This document shows, piece after piece, positions 16,742 through 59,240 of a stretch of 64,000 bases of DNA. The stretch's first letter is position 1. Every line of letters begins with the position of its first letter. Made by a program: the position numbers and the translations under genes. The notes under the pieces are model-generated. The model was not told the DNA's origin and did no database searches. It worked only from the letters and a program-made list of their open reading frames with translations. Source of the stretch: Corynebacterium hindlerae (GTDB lineage Bacteria; Actinomycetota; Actinomycetes; Mycobacteriales; Mycobacteriaceae); contig NZ_CP059833.1 in assembly GCF_014117265.1 (NCBI RefSeq), positions 2,015,069 through 2,079,068 of the forward strand. The letters are read 5' to 3'.

Positions 16742-16789
16742 CATTAGTTCCTATGCTTGCGGGGCACCACACAAGCTGAACGCGAGACG

Positions 16790-16865
16790 TGGAATTCGAG
16801 TCTCGGTGAATATAACCCCATTTTTGTGCTGCACATTTGCTATTTCATCCGAGACTCGAATTCCA
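16790..16865. repeat. 76-bp inverted repeat, 17-bp perfect arms
   Basis: TGGAATTCGAGTCTCGG at 16790-16806 is exactly complementary to 16849-16865, around a 42-nt loop. Outside the perfect arms GCGAGA and GACTCGC continue the pairing imperfectly. There is no T tract, so it is not a simple terminator. The geometry (long arms, loop of about 42 nt) resembles the elements at 31.5 and 38.2 kb although the arm sequence differs. Confidence 0.7.
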
Positions 16866-16932
16866 GGACTCGCATTTTTGGTGGCGTGGCCCCTAGATCG
16901 GCACCTGCCCTAGGTCACCACGGGCACGGCAA

Positions 16933-31513: not shown

Positions 31514-31606
31514 GGAATGACGATATTGAATTGACGATGACTGCTCGTTGTCACTTGTTTTCGATAGCGCGACCTAGGATTATCGTCAATTCAATATCGT
31601 CATTCC
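31514..31606. repeat. 93-bp inverted-repeat element, copy 1
   Basis: Perfect 25-bp arms at 31514-31538 and 31582-31606 enclose a 43-nt loop. Arm core: CGATATTGAATTGACGAT. The same core and a loop matching at 37 of 43 positions occur at 38230-38320. The outer seven bases (GGAATGA with TCATTCC) differ from copy 2 but remain complementary. It lies just after the cydC stop on the minus strand. Confidence 0.85.
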
Positions 31607-31733
31607 GCCTGCTGAGCCCCATTCCGCCTGCTGAGCCCCATTCCGCCTGCTGAGCCCCATTCCGCCTGCTGAGCCCCATTCCGCCTGCTGAGCCCCATTC
31701 CACCTGCTGAGCCCCATTCCACCTGCTGAGCCC
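31601..31733. repeat. Seven 19-bp tandem repeats
   Basis: Seven uninterrupted copies of CATTCCGCCTGCTGAGCCC; the last two read CATTCCACC. The first unit shares its opening CATTCC with the right arm tip of the adjacent inverted-repeat element. The array ends 9 bp before the cydC stop. A 63-codon minus-strand frame through it merely cycles the repeat and is not called. Confidence 0.95.
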
Positions 31734-31742
31734 ACCCCTCAC

Positions 31743-33305
31743 TCAGTTCACCCGGCCACCCGCCTCCGCGTGCGTCACTACGATCACGGTGCGTTCAGCC
31801 CGCGCGCCGGGCAGGGGTTCGTGTTGGAGCAGGTGGAGGTAATAGCCCGCGTCCTCGTGGGACATGTGCTCGGTGGGCTCATCCAGCAGGAGGATCTCTG
31901 CATCGGAGCATAAGGCCCGGGCGAGGAGCAGTCGGCGGCGTTGACCGCTGGAGAGGGAATCGGCTCCGTTGCCGAGGAGCTGATCCAAGGAGAAATCTGT
32001 CAGGCCTACGAAGTCGAGCACCTCTTGGAGCATAGCGTCTTGGGTGTCAGGTGCTGCCACGAGGAGGTTTTCTCGAATGGTGGTGGCAAAGATCCATTCG
32101 TCTTCAGTGTGGGCGCGTACGTGGGTTCGTAGCCAGGCTGGGTCGATCTCTGAGACTGGCACTCCTCCGATGGTGCAGTGCCCGGACTTGGCGGGAATCA
32201 GTCCGGCGAGGGTCAGTAGGAAACTGGTTTTGCCGAGACCGCTTGGTCCGGTGATGATGTGTCTGGTGCCTTGCGGGGCATCGATGTTCCAGGTGGCTGT
32301 GCCTCGTTCGAGCTGTAGGGATTGGGCGGTGAGGTGGAGGGAGTCCGGGATACGCTGAGCTGTGTGTGGCTGATCAGCGCAGAGCTTGCGGAGGCGTCGG
32401 GCAGCCCGGTGGGCGTCGACGGCGTGCATTGCGCAAGTCGCCAGGGGGCCGTGCGATTCGAACGCAGCGAGGGGAAGAAGCACGAGCATACCGAGCCAGG
32501 CCGGGTCCCCGGAGTACCAGTGCAGACCCACTGCCAGGAGCACCACGATGGCGAAACCGCTTCCGAGCCTATCCAGCATTGCTACCAGCGCCAATGGGCG
32601 TTCCGACTGTGCCTGCGCTGCGCTGTTCGCCTTCGATGCGGCGATGGTGCGGTCGATACGAGGTTGGGTAAGACCTGCGACGGCGAATTCTGCGCGGTGC
32701 AGCAGCTGGTCATCGAGGGCATGAAGCAGTGCATCCGACGTGGCGACGGCTTGCGCGTGTCGGTGGGCAGCAGCCACCAGAGCAGGCGTAACGACGCCCG
32801 TCACCACGAATCCCAACCCCAACGCAAGGCCAGCTAATGGTTGTAACAGTGTGGCCCCTAAGACAGCGGTTACGGACACGACCAGCGCAATCCCCGCGGG
32901 GATGACGCAGCGGACGATGTAGTCGGCAAACCTGTCCACATCTGCGCCCAAGTGGGCGAGGGCGCGGCCTCGTCCGAGGGTGTGCGCGGTGCCCCGAGGA
33001 TCGGAGACGATGGCGTCGAAAAGCGCAGGGCGGAGGCGGGTAGTGGCGGCCAGGGCGACGCGGTGGCTGATGAGGCGGTCGATGTAGCGGAAGCCAGCGC
33101 GGGTGATGCCGAGTGCACGTACCGCCGTGATCGCGACAGCAAGGTCGAGGATCGGAGGTCTCTCCCAAGCTCGGGTGATGAGCCAACCGGAGAGGACCGT
33201 CAGGCTCAACGCCGCCAGGAGCGTGATGGAGCCTGCCAGGACAGCGAGGGCTATGTCGCGGCGCCGTACCCCTGCGAGGCGGAACAGGAATCGAGTATCG
33301 GTCAT
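31743..33305 (-). CDS. cydC: Thiol/haem exporter subunit CydC (ABC transporter)
   Basis: 520 residues: six membrane helices, then an ATPase with Walker A GPSGLGKTS (about 365), signature LSSGQRRRLLLARAL, Walker B ILLLDEPTEHM and VVTHAE. With CydD it exports cysteine/glutathione-like thiols or haem needed to assemble cytochrome bd; in this organism the thiol partner is uncertain. It overlaps cydD by 4 bp (ATGA). Last gene of cydABDC; the inverted-repeat element and tandem repeats come directly after. Confidence 0.92.
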   Translation of the reverse strand: MTDTRFLFRLAGVRRRDIALAVLAGSITLLAALSLTVLSGWLITRAWERPPILDLAVAITAVRALGITRAGFRYIDRLISHRVALAATTRLRPALFDAIVSDPRGTAHTLGRGRALAHLGADVDRFADYIVRCVIPAGIALVVSVTAVLGATLLQPLAGLALGLGFVVTGVVTPALVAAAHRHAQAVATSDALLHALDDQLLHRAEFAVAGLTQPRIDRTIAASKANSAAQAQSERPLALVAMLDRLGSGFAIVVLLAVGLHWYSGDPAWLGMLVLLPLAAFESHGPLATCAMHAVDAHRAARRLRKLCADQPHTAQRIPDSLHLTAQSLQLERGTATWNIDAPQGTRHIITGPSGLGKTSFLLTLAGLIPAKSGHCTIGGVPVSEIDPAWLRTHVRAHTEDEWIFATTIRENLLVAAPDTQDAMLQEVLDFVGLTDFSLDQLLGNGADSLSSGQRRRLLLARALCSDAEILLLDEPTEHMSHEDAGYYLHLLQHEPLPGARAERTVIVVTHAEAGGRVN

Positions 33306-34861
33306 AGGTCAATCACCTGATCTGCAAGGGAAACAACCCGCGGATCATGGCTACTGATCACGATTGTTCGGCCCTCTTCTGCGAGATCCTGTAGCTGTGC
33401 GGTGAGCCGGGAGACAAGTTCGGGGCTGAGGTGTGCGCTTGGCTCATCTAGCAGCAGGGTGGTGCGTTCCGAGTTTGCGATGACGCGTGCGAGCGCCAAG
33501 CGCTGTCCTTGACCAGCGGAGATGCCGGTTCCGGAGGCGCCCACGGGATGCGTTGCAGGCACATCGAGGCCAACTCGTTCGGCGGCGATGGAAAGTTCGT
33601 GGGCGCGGGCACCCAGCAACGCGAGATTGCTGGACACGGTACCCGGTTCGAATGCCGGATGCGCAGGGAGATAGGAGATAAGTGACAGGGGTGGGGCGAT
33701 GATCTCACCGTCGACCACATCGTCTGGCAGCAGCCCCAAGATTGCGAGCAGTGCGGTGGATTTGCCGGAACCATTGGCGCCACGCAGCACCGTGATCGTG
33801 CCGGGCCTGGCGGTAAAAGACAGGTTGTTAGGGCGGATGCCGTCGCGGCCGGTGACGCTGAGCTGGCGCACATCGATCCGGTTTCCTGCGCGCCGGTAGG
33901 ACGCTGTGAGGGCGCGGGACTCAGAGACAAGCTCGAACACCCGTTGTGCGGCGGTAATACCGTCAACAGCTGCGTGGAAGCTGGAGCCAACGCGCCGGAG
34001 TGGGGTGTAGACCTCGGGTGCGATGATGAGCGCTACCAGGCCGGCAAGGAGCGTCATGTCACCGGCGACGAGGCGGAGGCCGATGCTCACCGCGATGAGC
34101 GCCACAGACAGCGTGGCCAGGAATTCCAGCGCAAACGCGGACAGGAATGCCAGGCGCAGCACCGACATGGTCGCTGTCGCATGGGACGAGCCGGTACGCA
34201 CGAGTTGCGCGTGTGGCGTCTCAGTGACGCCGAATGCTCGCAGGGTGGCGGAGCCTTGCAAGAGGTCGCTGAGCTGTCCGCTGAGCTTCCCCGCCACCTG
34301 CAGTCGCTTCTCGGTATGCGAGCGGGTCAGGGTGCCGATCAGCACCATAAACAGGGGGATCAGGGGGAGGGTAGTGGTGGCAAGCAGGCCGGAGGTGAGA
34401 TCGAAGTACAGCATGACTGCGAGGGCAATGGGCGTCGATAAGCAGGCTGCTATCAGGGCGGGTACGTAGTCGCTGAGGTACGGTCGCACGCCCGCCAGCC
34501 CCGCCGTCAGCGTTTCGCGCCACTGCGCCGCGTCCTCCTCGACGTCACGCGGGTCACGGTGCGCTAAGGCTACCAGGGCGGCCTCGCGAAGTTCGTCCAC
34601 CGCCTCACCAATGCTTAACGACGCCCACCTGCGCGCAACCCACGCCACCCCAGACTGCGCGACCACCACAGCCACCAACCAGGCCACCAAATCCCACCGC
34701 GTCACCTGCTGCTCGACCAGTGACGCCACAGCAACACCAATGAGCACCGCACGCGCCACAGTGAGCGCGGTATCCACCGCCTGCGCCAGCCCCGTCACAA
34801 TGATGTGTCTCCTGGCGGCAGGAGCTGCAACCAGGAGACGACGATCAAGCGGAGACGCCAT
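33302..34861 (-). CDS. cydD: Thiol/haem exporter subunit CydD (ABC transporter)
   Basis: 519 residues with an N-terminal six-helix membrane domain and a C-terminal ATPase: Walker A GANGSGKST at 361-369, a slightly degenerate signature ISAGQGQRLALARV, Walker B TLLLDEPSAHL and the switch ISSHD. Partner of CydC in cytochrome bd assembly. It begins 1 nt after the cydB stop, so translation is coupled. The four-gene order cydA-B-D-C is the usual actinobacterial arrangement. Confidence 0.92.
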   Translation of the reverse strand: MASPLDRRLLVAAPAARRHIIVTGLAQAVDTALTVARAVLIGVAVASLVEQQVTRWDLVAWLVAVVVAQSGVAWVARRWASLSIGEAVDELREAALVALAHRDPRDVEEDAAQWRETLTAGLAGVRPYLSDYVPALIAACLSTPIALAVMLYFDLTSGLLATTTLPLIPLFMVLIGTLTRSHTEKRLQVAGKLSGQLSDLLQGSATLRAFGVTETPHAQLVRTGSSHATATMSVLRLAFLSAFALEFLATLSVALIAVSIGLRLVAGDMTLLAGLVALIIAPEVYTPLRRVGSSFHAAVDGITAAQRVFELVSESRALTASYRRAGNRIDVRQLSVTGRDGIRPNNLSFTARPGTITVLRGANGSGKSTALLAILGLLPDDVVDGEIIAPPLSLISYLPAHPAFEPGTVSSNLALLGARAHELSIAAERVGLDVPATHPVGASGTGISAGQGQRLALARVIANSERTTLLLDEPSAHLSPELVSRLTAQLQDLAEEGRTIVISSHDPRVVSLADQVIDL

Positions 34862-35845
34862 CTAGACGCTAACCCGCTTACGGAACACCCAATACGTCCA
34901 CCCCTGGTACAGCAGCACCACCGGCGTCAAAAGCACCGCAGCCCACGTCATAATCGTGAGCGTGTACTGGCTACTCGACGCATTGTAGATATCCAAAGAC
35001 ACACCATCAGCCAGGGTGGTTGGCATCAGGTTCGGAAAGAGGCTACCGAACAGCTGCGCAGCACAGAGCAGGATGACCCCAGCCCAGGCGGCAAATGCCC
35101 AACCGTCCCTGCCCCTAAACAGCGCCACAGCGGCAGCAAGAGCGCACAACACCAGGGCGACGAGCAGAATCCATGTTGCCACACGACCGTGCTGGAGTTG
35201 CGTCCACACCAGGAACACCGCTGCCACAGCAATCACCGGGATGATGAGCTTTCGCGCAATCTCATGCGCACGACCACGCAGCGGCTCCTCAGATTTCAGC
35301 CCCAGGAACAGCAAGCCATGGATCAGGAAGGCCCCCAGGAACGTGACACCACCCAGCAGGCCGTACGGGTTCAACAGGGCGATAAAACCGTCGAAGCCGG
35401 ACTCGATCTGACGGTTGCCGTCGATAGCAACGCCCCGCACGATGTTGCCGAAGGCCACACCCCACAAAATCGCCGCCACCCAACTGCCGAACATAATGCC
35501 GAGGTCGCACCGATCCCGCCACTGCTCGGTATCGACTTTGCCACGCCATTCCAACCCCACGCCACGCAGAATCAGTCCGAGCAAGATCAGGAACAGTGGC
35601 AAATAGAAACCCGAGAACAACGTGGCGTACCACTCCGGGAACGCCGCGAACAGCGCGCCACCAGCGGTGATAAGCCACACCTCGTTGCCGTCCCACACCG
35701 GACCGATCGTCTTAATAGCGGCCGTGCGTTCCTCTTTCTTTAGCCACGGCAACACCATGCCGACACCAAAGTCAAAGCCCTCCAGGACGAAGTAACCAGC
35801 AAACAAAACAGCGACCAGAATGAACCAAACCGTTTGCAAATCCAT
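34862..35845 (-). CDS. cydB: Cytochrome bd oxidase subunit II
   Basis: 327 residues with about eight membrane helices. Conserved GFDFGVGMVLPW at residues 24-35 and GPVWDGNEVWLITAGGALFAAFP near 50-70 are signatures of subunit II. It holds the oxygen-reducing bd quinol oxidase together with CydA in the membrane. The gene shares one base with the cydA stop. Confidence 0.95.
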   Translation of the reverse strand: MDLQTVWFILVAVLFAGYFVLEGFDFGVGMVLPWLKKEERTAAIKTIGPVWDGNEVWLITAGGALFAAFPEWYATLFSGFYLPLFLILLGLILRGVGLEWRGKVDTEQWRDRCDLGIMFGSWVAAILWGVAFGNIVRGVAIDGNRQIESGFDGFIALLNPYGLLGGVTFLGAFLIHGLLFLGLKSEEPLRGRAHEIARKLIIPVIAVAAVFLVWTQLQHGRVATWILLVALVLCALAAAVALFRGRDGWAFAAWAGVILLCAAQLFGSLFPNLMPTTLADGVSLDIYNASSSQYTLTIMTWAAVLLTPVVLLYQGWTYWVFRKRVSV

Positions 35846-37341
35846 TAGTTTCGCACTCCTTCAGCACCGAAACGAAGCGGTTCGACAGGGGCGTCAGGCG
35901 GCCCATATCCATCAGCAGCGTGATCGCTAGCCCCAAGCGGAAGTGGTCCTTCCAACACCTTCTTGCGGATCAGCCAGAACCACACCAGCGCGAGCAAACC
36001 GTAGACCAGCGTAAACCCGATCAACGACACCCACACCACCCACGGCGCATGGTTAGACACACCGAAGTCAACAATCAAATGAATCTGGTCCTCACCGTTG
36101 GGGCTCCCCGGAGCGAATGCCGGATTTGGATGCACAATCCATGGCTGGCGCCCCATCTCCGTGAACACCCAGCCCGCAGAGTTAGCGACAAACGGGAACG
36201 GCGTAGCCCACAATGCCAGGGTGCCGAACCACTTCTTGTCTGGAAGCGCGCCCTTCCTAGAGAACCAAAAGCCCAGGACACACAGGATGAGGGAGCCGAC
36301 GATCAGGCCGATCATCATGCGGAACGACCAATACGTGACGAACAGGTTTGGTGTGTAATTTCCCGGACCGTACAGTGCCTCGTACTTATCCTGCAGCTGA
36401 TTCACACCCTGCAAGGTCACACCCGAGAACTTGGTTTCAGACAGGAAACTCAAGACCCACGGAACCTCAATCAAGTGTTTGACGGACTCACAGTTGTTGT
36501 GGGTACCCACGGTCAACACGGAGAAATGCGGATCCATTTGGGTTTCACAGAGTGATTCTGCAGACGCCATCTTCATCGGCTGCTGGATGAACATCAATTT
36601 AGCCTGAATATCGCCGGTAATACCGAGCAATACCGAAGAGATAGCGGTGACCCATAAACCGAGGCGCATTGTAGGGCGCCACAAAATGCTGGCCCGATCC
36701 TTGTGAGCCAAGCGATCACGCACGATCCACCATGCCGAAATACCGGCCATGAAGGTGCCCGCCGTCAACAACGACCCAGAGAACGTATGAGGCCAGGCCG
36801 CAAGCGCAGTGGGGTTGCTCAGCAGCGCACCAATATCTGTCAGCTCAGCACGACCCGTCTCTGGGTTGAACACCGCACCCACCGGGTGCTGCATAAACGA
36901 GTTCGCCACGATGATGAAGTAAGCGGACAGGTTAACCGCAAACGCAACCAACCAGATCGAAGCCAAGTGCGCCCACTTAGGCAACCGGCCCCAACCAAAA
37001 ATCCACAGTCCGAGGAAGGTGGATTCAATGAAGAAAGCAGCGAGTCCCTCTAGCGCCAGCGGGGCGCCGAAAACATCGCCCACAAAGCGCGAGTATTCAC
37101 TCCAGTTCATACCGAACTGAAACTCTTGCACAATGCCGGTTACCACGCCCATGGCGAAGTTAACCAGGAACAATGTGCCAAAGAACCGAGTAGCGCGATA
37201 CCAGTGATCTTTGCCGGTGACGTGCCATGCGGTCTGCAGCATAGCCACTAGCGGGGCAAGGCCGATAGTTAAAGGAACGAAAATAAAGTGATAAACGGTG
37301 GTAATCCCAAATTGCCACCTTGAGACATCCACTATGTCCAT
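35845..37341 (-). CDS. cydA: Cytochrome bd oxidase subunit I
   Basis: 498 residues. It carries the quinol site and all three haems of the high-affinity oxidase. Ligands visible: His18 (VYHFIFVPL), His185 (WPHTFSG) and Met396 (TEMGRQPW). The Q-loop is of the short actinobacterial type (about 250-330). The ATG at 37341 is preferred since GGAGG lies 8 nt upstream; the in-frame GTG at 37350 is too close to it. First gene of cydABDC, giving respiration at low oxygen. Confidence 0.95.
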   Translation of the reverse strand: MDIVDVSRWQFGITTVYHFIFVPLTIGLAPLVAMLQTAWHVTGKDHWYRATRFFGTLFLVNFAMGVVTGIVQEFQFGMNWSEYSRFVGDVFGAPLALEGLAAFFIESTFLGLWIFGWGRLPKWAHLASIWLVAFAVNLSAYFIIVANSFMQHPVGAVFNPETGRAELTDIGALLSNPTALAAWPHTFSGSLLTAGTFMAGISAWWIVRDRLAHKDRASILWRPTMRLGLWVTAISSVLLGITGDIQAKLMFIQQPMKMASAESLCETQMDPHFSVLTVGTHNNCESVKHLIEVPWVLSFLSETKFSGVTLQGVNQLQDKYEALYGPGNYTPNLFVTYWSFRMMIGLIVGSLILCVLGFWFSRKGALPDKKWFGTLALWATPFPFVANSAGWVFTEMGRQPWIVHPNPAFAPGSPNGEDQIHLIVDFGVSNHAPWVVWVSLIGFTLVYGLLALVWFWLIRKKVLEGPLPLGASDHAADGYGPPDAPVEPLRFGAEGVRN

Positions 37342-37599
37342 ACGTGACACCTCCAGGTGTGAAAAGCGCCCTCAAATACAAGCATGCTCCCTAAGTAGTC
37401 GGGTACACCAGAGATAAAGTTTCCAATCACATAGCACTTGGCCCTTTTCGGGGCTATTTACCCCCACCGTTTTTGTTCCGGCAGGATTATCAAGCGCTGG
37501 AGTGTGGTTTTGGGTGATTCCGTGACCCGATTTTGTGATCCAAAAATCAAGGGTCTAAAGTAGTTCTCTAGCGACACTCTCTAACGAGCGTTGCTGGTC
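37342..37599. promoter_or_regulatory. cydA / tRNA-Lys divergent upstream region
   Basis: Holds the promoter of the cyd operon on the minus strand and of tRNA-Lys on the plus strand. I could not assign a regulator site with confidence. Confidence 0.4.
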
Positions 37600-37672
37600 G
37601 GGCCTTTAGCTCAGTTGGTAGAGCTACGGACTTTTAATCCGCAGGTCGCGGGTTCGAGCCCCGCAGGGCCCA
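37600..37672 (+). tRNA. tRNA-Lys (TTT)
   Basis: Full cloverleaf: acceptor GGGCCTT with AGGGCCC, anticodon loop CTTTTAA, T-arm GGTTCGAGCC. No encoded CCA. Confidence 0.95.
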
Positions 37673-37675
37673 CAG

Positions 37676-37716
37676 TAAAAAGCCCGCCCACTTTTCGAAG
37701 TGGGCGGGCTTTTTAT
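37676..37716 (+). terminator. Terminator of tRNA-Lys
   Basis: AAAAAGCCCGCCCACTT pairs with AAGTGGGCGGGCTTTTT around TTCG. Confidence 0.9.
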
Positions 37717-37856
37717 TGCGGGCTGTTGGGGTGGATTCTTTAGTGCATTGTGTGCGATTTAAAGCTTCCGTTTGCGCACGTCAGGGGCGGATTTTGTACT
37801 CGGGGAAAATTCACGTATATTAAACGTCTGTCGCAAGGGAAACCCCTTGAAGGCTC

Positions 37857-37929
<73 letters not shown>

Positions 37930-37966
37930 CAAAGGTCCGCTTCGGCGGGCCTTATTAACTAAATAT

Positions 37967-38040
37967 GGCCCTGTGGCGCAGTTGGTTAGCGCGCCGCCCT
38001 GTCACGGCGGAGGTCGCGGGTTCAAGTCCCGTCAGGGTCG
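37967..38040 (+). tRNA. tRNA-Asp (GTC), copy 1
   Basis: Anticodon loop CTGTCAC, T-arm GGTTCAAGTCC, 74 nt. Identical in sequence to the copy at 38545. Follows tRNA-Glu closely and probably shares its transcript. Confidence 0.95.
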
Positions 38041-38049
38041 CATTTGGGT

Positions 38050-38086
38050 AAAAATCCCTACTCCAGGCAATGGGGTAGGGATTTTT
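38050..38086 (+). terminator. Terminator after the Glu-Asp tRNA pair
   Basis: AAAATCCCTAC pairs with GTAGGGATTTT, followed by more T residues. Confidence 0.85.
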
Positions 38087-38229
38087 TCGGGTTAAGGGAC
38101 AAAACGTGTGTCCATGTGGGGTGGGGCCGTTGTTATTGCACCGTCTTTGGTGGATGGGGCTCCTTGGTCGCCGATACAGGTAAACAGAACCTGCAAGCAC
38201 AGGCGGAGTAGTTTCCGACGTGTGGGCAG
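38087..38229. other. Intergenic spacer between tRNA-Asp copies
   Basis: No gene recognised. Leads into inverted-repeat copy 2; the remaining 38321-38544 should hold the promoter of the second tRNA-Asp. Confidence 0.5.
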
Positions 38230-38320
38230 GAAAGCCGATATTGAATTGACGATAACTCCTCGTTGTCACTTGTTTTCGCTAGCGTGACCTAGGGTCATCG
38301 TCAATTCAATATCGGCTTTC
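38230..38320. repeat. 91-bp inverted-repeat element, copy 2
   Basis: Perfect 24-bp arms at 38230-38253 and 38297-38320 around a 43-nt loop. Inner core CGATATTGAATTGACGAT is shared with copy 1 at 31514; the outer tip is GAAAGC with GCTTTC. The loop also contains GTCAC pairing with GTGAC. Confidence 0.85.
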
Positions 38321-38544
38321 GACTGCTGGACTCACCCGACCCGCCTGCCTAAGGTTTAGTGCTCGATTCGAATACCCAATCCCTACCACCACAACCGCTT
38401 AACTTGAGTTAACCGCCTAGGTATGGGGTGAGCGGCATTTGGGGTTGAAACTCACGAATTATCTAATCTGACCTGCAGATTTGTTTAGAGCTGGCACTTC
38501 TGTGTAAAGTTTTACCTCGTGCGAGAGAGTAACTCTTTCGACAC

Positions 38545-38618
38545 GGCCCTGTGGCGCAGTTGGTTAGCGCGCCGCCCTGTCACGGCGGAGGTCGCGGGTT
38601 CAAGTCCCGTCAGGGTCG
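38545..38618 (+). tRNA. tRNA-Asp (GTC), copy 2
   Basis: Same 74-nt sequence as the first copy. Followed 26 bp later by tRNA-Phe. Confidence 0.95.
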
Positions 38619-38644
38619 CAGGTTTATCCTTGTGGTAAGCCAAC

Positions 38645-58858: not shown

Positions 58859-58879
58859 GTCGCTTAACCCCGGAAGCTC

Positions 58880-58957
58880 GACCCCGACATTACGCCCCCG
58901 AGGTCGCTCCAAAAATGCCTCCGCGAGCCCGAACTTCGGGAGGGTAATGTCGGGGTC
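58880..58957. repeat. 78-bp inverted repeat downstream of tRNA-Ala
   Basis: GACCCCGACATTAC (58880-58893) is exactly complementary to 58944-58957. Inside, CCCGAA/TTCGGG (58928-58940) forms a second hairpin. No T tract follows. Confidence 0.65.
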
Positions 58958-59240
58958 AACGCATAAACAGCCCGACGGGTTTTAAAGCCTTGATAGGGCA
59001 AACCGCACCGCTCTGCTCGAAGGTGAGCGCTATTTGCAACAGCAGGGAAACATTCCTGGTTTACTTTTTGAAGCCACCGGGTTTTTATTGTCTACCAATC
59101 GGCCCGCCTCTTAAATGGAAAGCCCGGCTGTCTAGTGATATGCTTACCGGACTCATATTTTGTCCCTTAAGCGTCGTCACATTACCCCCGTATTGTGAGG
59201 GGAGAGTCAGGAACTGTCGGATGGTGGCACAATAAGAGCT
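58958..59240. other. Intergenic region, no gene recognised
   Basis: Leads to the FMN-barrel gene. A plus-strand open frame at 58990-59235 shows no family resemblance or start site. Confidence 0.4.

Follow-up and report, generated by a model that had tools for sequence, protein, structure and literature searches.

Two inverted repeats in the window

The window, a stretch of 64,000 nucleotides from Corynebacterium hindlerae, contains two copies of a long inverted-repeat element. They had been described in an earlier note made from the sequence alone, and their coordinates, perfect arms of 25 and 24 bp and loops of 43 nt were recovered as given there. Each arm carries two 7-bp boxes, TGACGAT or a diverged form of it, in direct orientation. 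The features are the following, with positions counted from the first letter of the window.

31514..31606, plus strand: copy 1 of the repeat, perfect 25-bp arms and 43-nt loop; loop motif TTTTC on the plus strand
31518..31524, plus strand: copy 1, outer 5' box TGACGAT (four-box scan, 0 disagreements)
31532..31538, plus strand: copy 1, inner 5' box TGACGAT (four-box scan), 14 bp past the outer box
31582..31588, minus strand: copy 1, inner 3' box, TGACGAT on the minus strand (four-box scan)
31596..31602, minus strand: copy 1, outer 3' box, TGACGAT on the minus strand (four-box scan)
31601..31733, no strand assigned: 19-bp tandem repeat CATTCCGCCTGCTGAGCCC, 7 copies, starting within the right tip of copy 1
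38230..38320, plus strand: copy 2 of the repeat, perfect 24-bp arms and 43-nt loop, flanked by two tRNA-Asp genes
38233..38239, plus strand: copy 2, outer 5' box, diverged to AGCCGAT (sequence and box tally)
38247..38253, plus strand: copy 2, inner 5' box TGACGAT (sequence)
38297..38303, minus strand: copy 2, inner 3' box, TGACGAT on the minus strand (sequence)
38311..38317, minus strand: copy 2, outer 3' box, AGCCGAT on the minus strand; its change equals that of the 5' partner

The 18-bp arm core is free of mismatches at all four arms. With up to three mismatches, it matched four times in the window, a number reached in 0 of 100 shuffles, against 0.05 expected, and nowhere beyond those arms. 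The loops agree at 37 of 43 positions; the 79-nt cores are 92.4% identical, and every one of their 6 differences lies in the loop. The outer tips are unlike between the copies and are still paired within each, and the inner GUCGC/GUGAC pairing is present in the minus-strand fold of copy 1. The covariance model R1, of which both copies are members, matched copy 1 at 31514-31605 with 94.0 bits and copy 2 at 38229-38320 with 89.6 bits.

The tandem repeat next to copy 1 has 99% matches over its seven copies, and the end of the element looks like the seed of the array. The two tRNA-Asp genes around copy 2 (window 37967-38619) have an identical 76-bp stretch in common, an apparent local tRNA duplication.

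A family of 22 copies with a four-box plan

DNA and pattern searches of the 2.68-Mb genome yielded 22 dispersed copies, the window pair included, which bears out the earlier view of a multi-copy element of the repetitive extragenic palindromic (REP) or miniature inverted-repeat transposable element (MITE) kind. R1 was built from alignment A1 of these 22 copies, and its re-finding of them is by construction; a search of the genome with R1 gave one decayed copy in addition (C1:2210897-2210988). The copies occupy 14 sites, seven of which hold two or three tandem copies 146 to 259 bp apart. By open reading frame (ORF) calling all are intergenic, overlapping only short ORFs taken as spurious. Pairs of cores have a median identity of about 75%, one out-of-register copy included, and the most similar pairs, up to 97.5%, are mostly tandem neighbours.

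The family plan is box-N7-box-N43-box'-N7-box', where the box is TGACGAT. The boxes of each arm form a direct pair 14 bp apart, the arms are mutually inverted, and the element measures 85 bp from box to box. Inverted arm pairs, as looked for in a terminal inverted repeat test for MITEs, are present in 22/22 copies. One copy opens the only inner gap column of the alignment; each of the remaining 21 measures 79 nt from one arm end to the other. For these 21 copies parsimony gave 158 substitutions and zero indels. By comparison, between two spacers of the triple cluster, outside the element, 18 substitutions and 2 indels were counted within 81-83 bases.

The substitutions are unevenly spread: 6 fall in the 16 inner-box positions, 11 in the 12 outer-box positions, 102 in the 43 loop positions and 39 in the 12 arm-spacer positions. 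Per site, the inner boxes have 0.25 and 0.50 changes and the outer boxes 0.83 and 1.0, compared with 2.37 for the loop and 3.33 and 3.17 for the two arm spacers. The rate per site in the boxes is thus roughly a quarter of that elsewhere in the element, and the arm spacers are the fastest of all. The inner boxes are exact in 41/42 cases. What the element conserves is box sequence and box spacing.

Boxes and spacing kept while the arm spacers drift would suit a binding site for a host protein, such as a nucleoid organiser, a replication or segregation factor or a global regulator, the four boxes serving as an operator and the copies being kept because they are functional. The tandem partners at three sites are likewise in its favour: they are 96-97.5% identical inside the element, and BLAST matches between them hardly pass its ends (84, 103 and 107 bp). 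The position of the copies relative to genes is not consistent, which speaks against such a site. The genes near copies include lepA, mraZ, tex and those for a carboxyl transferase, phosphoglucose isomerase, asparaginase, subtilase, biotin ligase, a PP-loop protein, acetyl-CoA hydrolase and an ABC transporter pair, and flanking genes are divergent, convergent, parallel or opposed without any rule.

A predicted ORF terminates at the TGA of the first box in two genomes (L069, C1:2211307-2211975; L300:665-1504), and the element may supply stop codons to neighbouring ORFs. On the loop strand of several copies (e.g. L016, L005 and L026) an ATG at the inner box opens about 11 codons that end on TGA. 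A short ORF in the loop was dropped by eye, since in several copies the frame is soon stopped or lacks an ATG; it is probably due to chance.

Pairing of the arms

The earlier note had taken the perfect arms and the compensating changes of the window copies as signs of selection for structure. This was not upheld by the family. Over the 22 copies, 80.0% of the cells of the 25-pair arm helix are paired, compared with 79.7% in shuffles in which the 3' letters were re-dealt and the column composition was kept (219/500 as high). Pairs changed on both sides number 7, compared with 8.2 in the shuffles. The compensatory-change argument therefore fails family-wide: pairing is what column composition predicts, and the arm spacers, which a selected hairpin would keep paired, change fastest. 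Outside the boxes, pairing is lost in further copies, an outcome that the earlier note had itself named as a refutation. Selection for an RNA or DNA hairpin was dropped on the pairing figures.

Seven aligned copies from a related genome, G144, gave a similar picture, with 76.4% paired cells against 74.8% (122/500 shuffles as high). Their double-change pairs, 9 against 6.5 with 48/500 shuffles as high, are mildly raised; as one of five measures, this is a hint at most.

A structured RNA selected for its fold (terminator, attenuator or small RNA) is accordingly considered improbable. It would explain that the window copies are perfect hairpins, that a terminator-like site lies inside copy 1 (31532-31553) and that 22/22 copies fold with lower energy than 60 shuffles on their better strand (z-scores -2.1 to -14.8). 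Against it stand the lack of covariation above shuffles, both in the 22 copies and in the seven of G144, and a scan of the window with Rfam 15 at gathering scores, which returned rRNA and tRNA only and no match to the element. As there is no covariation above shuffles, the invariant boxes may by themselves account for low folding energy. Terminator-like sites number 7 in the region against 6.4 in shuffles, which is chance level. Template-switch correction of quasipalindromes can yield perfect arms in single copies, and the perfect arms of the window copies may stem from it rather than from selection. Two copies with perfect arms should not count as fold selection before the family is viewed.

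Two more palindromes lie in the window at 16788-16867 and 58878-58959, with arms of 18-19 bp and loops of 42-46 nt; no box pattern was seen in them.

Related elements in the genus

Of 241 other genomes of the genus, four proved to hold related elements: at 13 places in G144, at three each in G178 and G236, and at one in G230. The count of 4/241 is a lower bound, since weak matches are lost to the stricter filters applied whenever more than 40 genomes were searched. With R1, no match was obtained in 100 relatives at an E value of 0.001, and over the 241 genomes at 0.1 two matched, G144 and G178. A second model, R2, was built from alignment A2 of seven G144 copies. At an E value of 0.05 it matched 10 of 242 genomes, namely G144, G230, G236 and seven that were set aside by eye, and gave no match to the C. 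hindlerae genome.

The four-box plan with like boxes and spacers of 7 or 8 nt is found in C. hindlerae, G144, one copy of G178 (copy a) and G230, and roughly in G236. Twelve of the 13 places in G144 are readable, and 41 of their 48 boxes are exactly TGACGA. The box-to-box length there is 64 bp in 9/12 copies, with a different and shorter loop; a half element (L305) was left out of the 13 places. In G178 copy a, GGCCAT stands in place of GACGAT at all four boxes, and the loop is still alignable to that of C. hindlerae (CCTGG, TTTTC and GCGACCTGC). The single copy of G230 has TGGTGA at all four boxes and fully paired spacers.

The distance between inner boxes, measured from start to start of the 6-bp word, is 28 bp in G230, 30 in G144, 51 in C. 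hindlerae and 53 in G178 copy a. The distances form two groups 21 to 25 bp apart, about two helical turns, which hints at binding as double-stranded DNA; four values are few.

Several candidates were rejected. The seven weak R2 matches (G138, G209, G049, G006, G267, G114 and G280) and L323-L327 were set aside by eye. G006 and G267 carry GACGA/TCGTC four times, with a spacing of 14 bp on one side and 12 bp on the other; the stretch is alike in both, was taken as coding and does not enter the count of four related genomes. The pattern TTGACGAT..ATCGTCAA matched 4 of 201 genus genomes, C. hindlerae and three others, whose 62-nt stretch, alike in the three, was taken as coding. The loop-only pattern CCTGG..TTTTC..GACCTG matched 30 of 242 genomes; among the 30 loci fetched, which are not all places, family arms occur only in that of C. 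hindlerae, and the known G178 copy, which matched the pattern, is outside these loci. L293, L278, L265 and L294, with middling arm scores (z-scores 4.5, 4.2, 3.6 and 3.4), were set aside by eye. A four-box scan with up to two disagreements found nothing in 780 kb of G008 and G014, a weak negative, as the scan passes only 8/22 of the C. hindlerae copies. Plasmid records had no match to window copy 1 and phage records none to one copy of the 919-kb site, a single copy being the query in each case, and viral contigs gave 0 matches to one strict pattern.

This patchiness is the second difficulty for the host binding site described above. No match was found in 237/241 other genus genomes at the sensitivity used, and a housekeeping site should be less patchy. 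Such a site is ranked second and is considered rather unlikely.

Mobility and the search for an enzyme

In line with the earlier note, no transposase was found among the scanned protein neighbours of the two window copies, which are an acetyl-CoA hydrolase, two ABC transporter subunits, cytochrome bd subunit I, a GNAT protein and a hexapeptide transferase. In all, 39 element-neighbouring proteins (9, 10, 10 and 10) were scanned with Pfam. The one mobile-element enzyme among them is an rve transposase beside the G230 copy, presumably IS481-like. It was judged unrelated because its own ends, of the TGTCTCGAGACATCG type, are unlike the boxes. Its gene (L307:40-1460) follows a tRNA-like end; at the right end of the gene GGAACGATG..GAGACA occurs several times, and CTGCTGGGGGCGCTTTGTGTT is present on both outer sides.

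A REP repeat or paired REP (REPIN) moved by a RAYT, an IS200-like Y1 enzyme acting on hairpins, was also weighed. The element resembles such repeats in being palindromic, intergenic by ORF calling, locally clustered, fixed in length and limited to few species. The Y1 transposase domain PF01797 gave 0 matches in the C. hindlerae genome and was matched in 5 of 14 control genomes. No conserved GT(A/G)G head, a defining feature before the REP palindrome (PMC2817692), was found in the 12-nt flanks of the 22 copies. The copy number of 22 contrasts with the more than 100 per genome usual for REPs (PMC2817692), the boxes form direct pairs rather than a GC-rich hairpin, and pairing is not kept outside them. 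REPs and RAYTs are said to co-evolve (PMC2817692). A RAYT-moved repeat is thus about as improbable as a structured RNA.

Some copies may travel within a larger unit. Two distant copies, at 1021871 and 1195022, have 176 bp in common at 77% identity. The sequence GTGGAGCCTTTCAC recurs less than 400 bp from the copies at C1:919685-919874, 1195022 and 2458232-2458491, and a similar stretch is found at 1021871. Two C. hindlerae copies lie between the biotin ligase and carboxyl transferase genes, with a start-to-start distance of 504 bp at this gap; it is 150, 240, 249, 402 and 443 bp in the five relatives, out of nine, in which both genes were found. The longer gap fits an insertion and proves nothing.

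Comparison with known repeats

The element resembles MITEs in being short and non-coding, with inverted ends, dispersed between genes in several to tens of copies. It differs from them in carrying two direct copies of one box per end, and neither a target duplication nor a parent insertion sequence that shares its ends was seen in the C. hindlerae genome. The ERIC (enterobacterial repetitive intergenic consensus) or RU-1 repeat of enterobacteria is a long imperfect palindrome of about 100-130 bp; it is likewise intergenic and has another sequence, and neither an enzyme nor a four-box plan is known for it. Integron attC sites likewise have two boxes per arm, a poorly paired spacer between them and a loop of variable length. 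In attC, however, the boxes within an arm face each other, whereas here they are direct and 14 bp apart, and no gene cassettes were recognised.

Arrays of heptamer direct repeats, e.g. TAACTGA, lie mostly upstream of start codons (PMC4679880). They too repeat a short intergenic word at intervals divisible by 7, but are direct arrays, whereas the present element has four boxes in two inverted pairs. A table row in PMC2267715 lists stem-loop counts for C. diphtheriae. In literature on Corynebacterium REP, MITE, palindromic and interspersed repeats, on REPINs and RAYTs of Actinobacteria and on heptamer repeats, the element was not found described; subscription titles were mostly outside the search. 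The earlier label "undescribed" is not contradicted.

The element might also belong to a cross-phylum class of palindromic heptad-repeat arrays with GATTGAC units that would grow and spread. The pattern TTGACGAT-N38-48-ATCGTCAA-N6-ATC gave at least 120 stretches in a genome collection, and among 80 of these many inverted 7-bp arrays (GATTGAC/GATTTAC) were seen by eye. These arrays (L071-L190) lie in metagenome-assembled genomes (MAGs) of Acidobacteria, Chloroflexi, Planctomycetota and Desulfobacterales. In 789 kb of those 120 loci, away from the matches, arrays of the GATTGAC class are more frequent than any other 7-bp array (16/151). The word was part of the query, however, so that the genomes are selected for it, and no control word was run on the collection. 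In viral contigs, palindromes of GATTGACGAT gave 9 stretches, compared with 12 and 6 for two control words, and the arm spacers of the present element are, by eye, unlike such heptads. Membership of this class is the most doubtful of the explanations weighed, and the cross-phylum likeness is a lead only. In two Chloroflexi MAGs, 4/6 arrays share an inner box-to-box length of 54 bp and an apparent inner hairpin.

Interpretation

With a probability of about 0.5, the element is an old non-autonomous mobile DNA element, MITE-like in type, that is read by a putative protein. The four 7-bp boxes, two direct at each end with the ends inverted, would be its working parts. A protein, whether a transposase, a recombinase or a partner of one, would bind the paired boxes as double-stranded DNA and would once have moved the element into intergenic sites. 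Local multiplication would have added copies 146-259 bp apart. The enzyme would have been lost from the C. hindlerae genome or would be present there in a form that is not recognised.

A mobile origin is suggested by the patchy presence of the element, its dispersed and tandem copies and the larger common unit of 176 bp. Recognition by one trans-acting factor is suggested by the same word change at four places, the direct pair of each arm included; pairing alone would be insufficient to bring this about.

A number of observations weigh against a mobile element read in this way. The four-fold word change rests on single copies in two genomes, G178 and G230. The other two G178 copies are rearranged, one with unlike boxes on each side, leaving 1/3 with four like boxes, and the three copies of G236 mix TGACGA, TGTCGA and TGGCGA boxes, one copy being irregular. 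In C. hindlerae the outer boxes often differ: they are exact in 20/42 cases (12/21 at the 5' side and 8/21 at the 3' side), the main 3' alternative is TGCTGAT (9/21), and the boxes do not always change together.

Traces of movement are also scarce. The longest flanking direct repeat has a mean of 1.8 nt, compared with 1.6 for mismatched flanks, and target-site duplications could have been lost from old copies. Of 39 arm-like places in the genome (up to three mismatches), 38 belong to known copies and one is lone, which leaves no longer parent element. Between different sites, the greatest identities are 92.4% (the window pair) and 88.6%, which gives no sign of recent movement. The matches of the nearest relatives, about 80% identical in a coding stretch, are too distant to reveal an empty site. 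No protein accompanying the element was found among the 39 scanned neighbours. Constraint on the boxes in an element that shows no recent movement is compatible with a host function, the explanation ranked second.

Tentatively, and at less than even odds, the elements may represent a class of dispersed DNA sites at genus level, with one word of 6-7 bp repeated four times at fixed spacing. Between species the word would be exchanged at all four places at once, keeping pace with a putative DNA-binding enzyme or host protein that reads paired direct boxes, 14 bp apart, to either side of the loop. What appeared as a pair of hairpins would then become a problem of recognition, and the natural word swaps would offer a specificity code with which the reader protein may be found.

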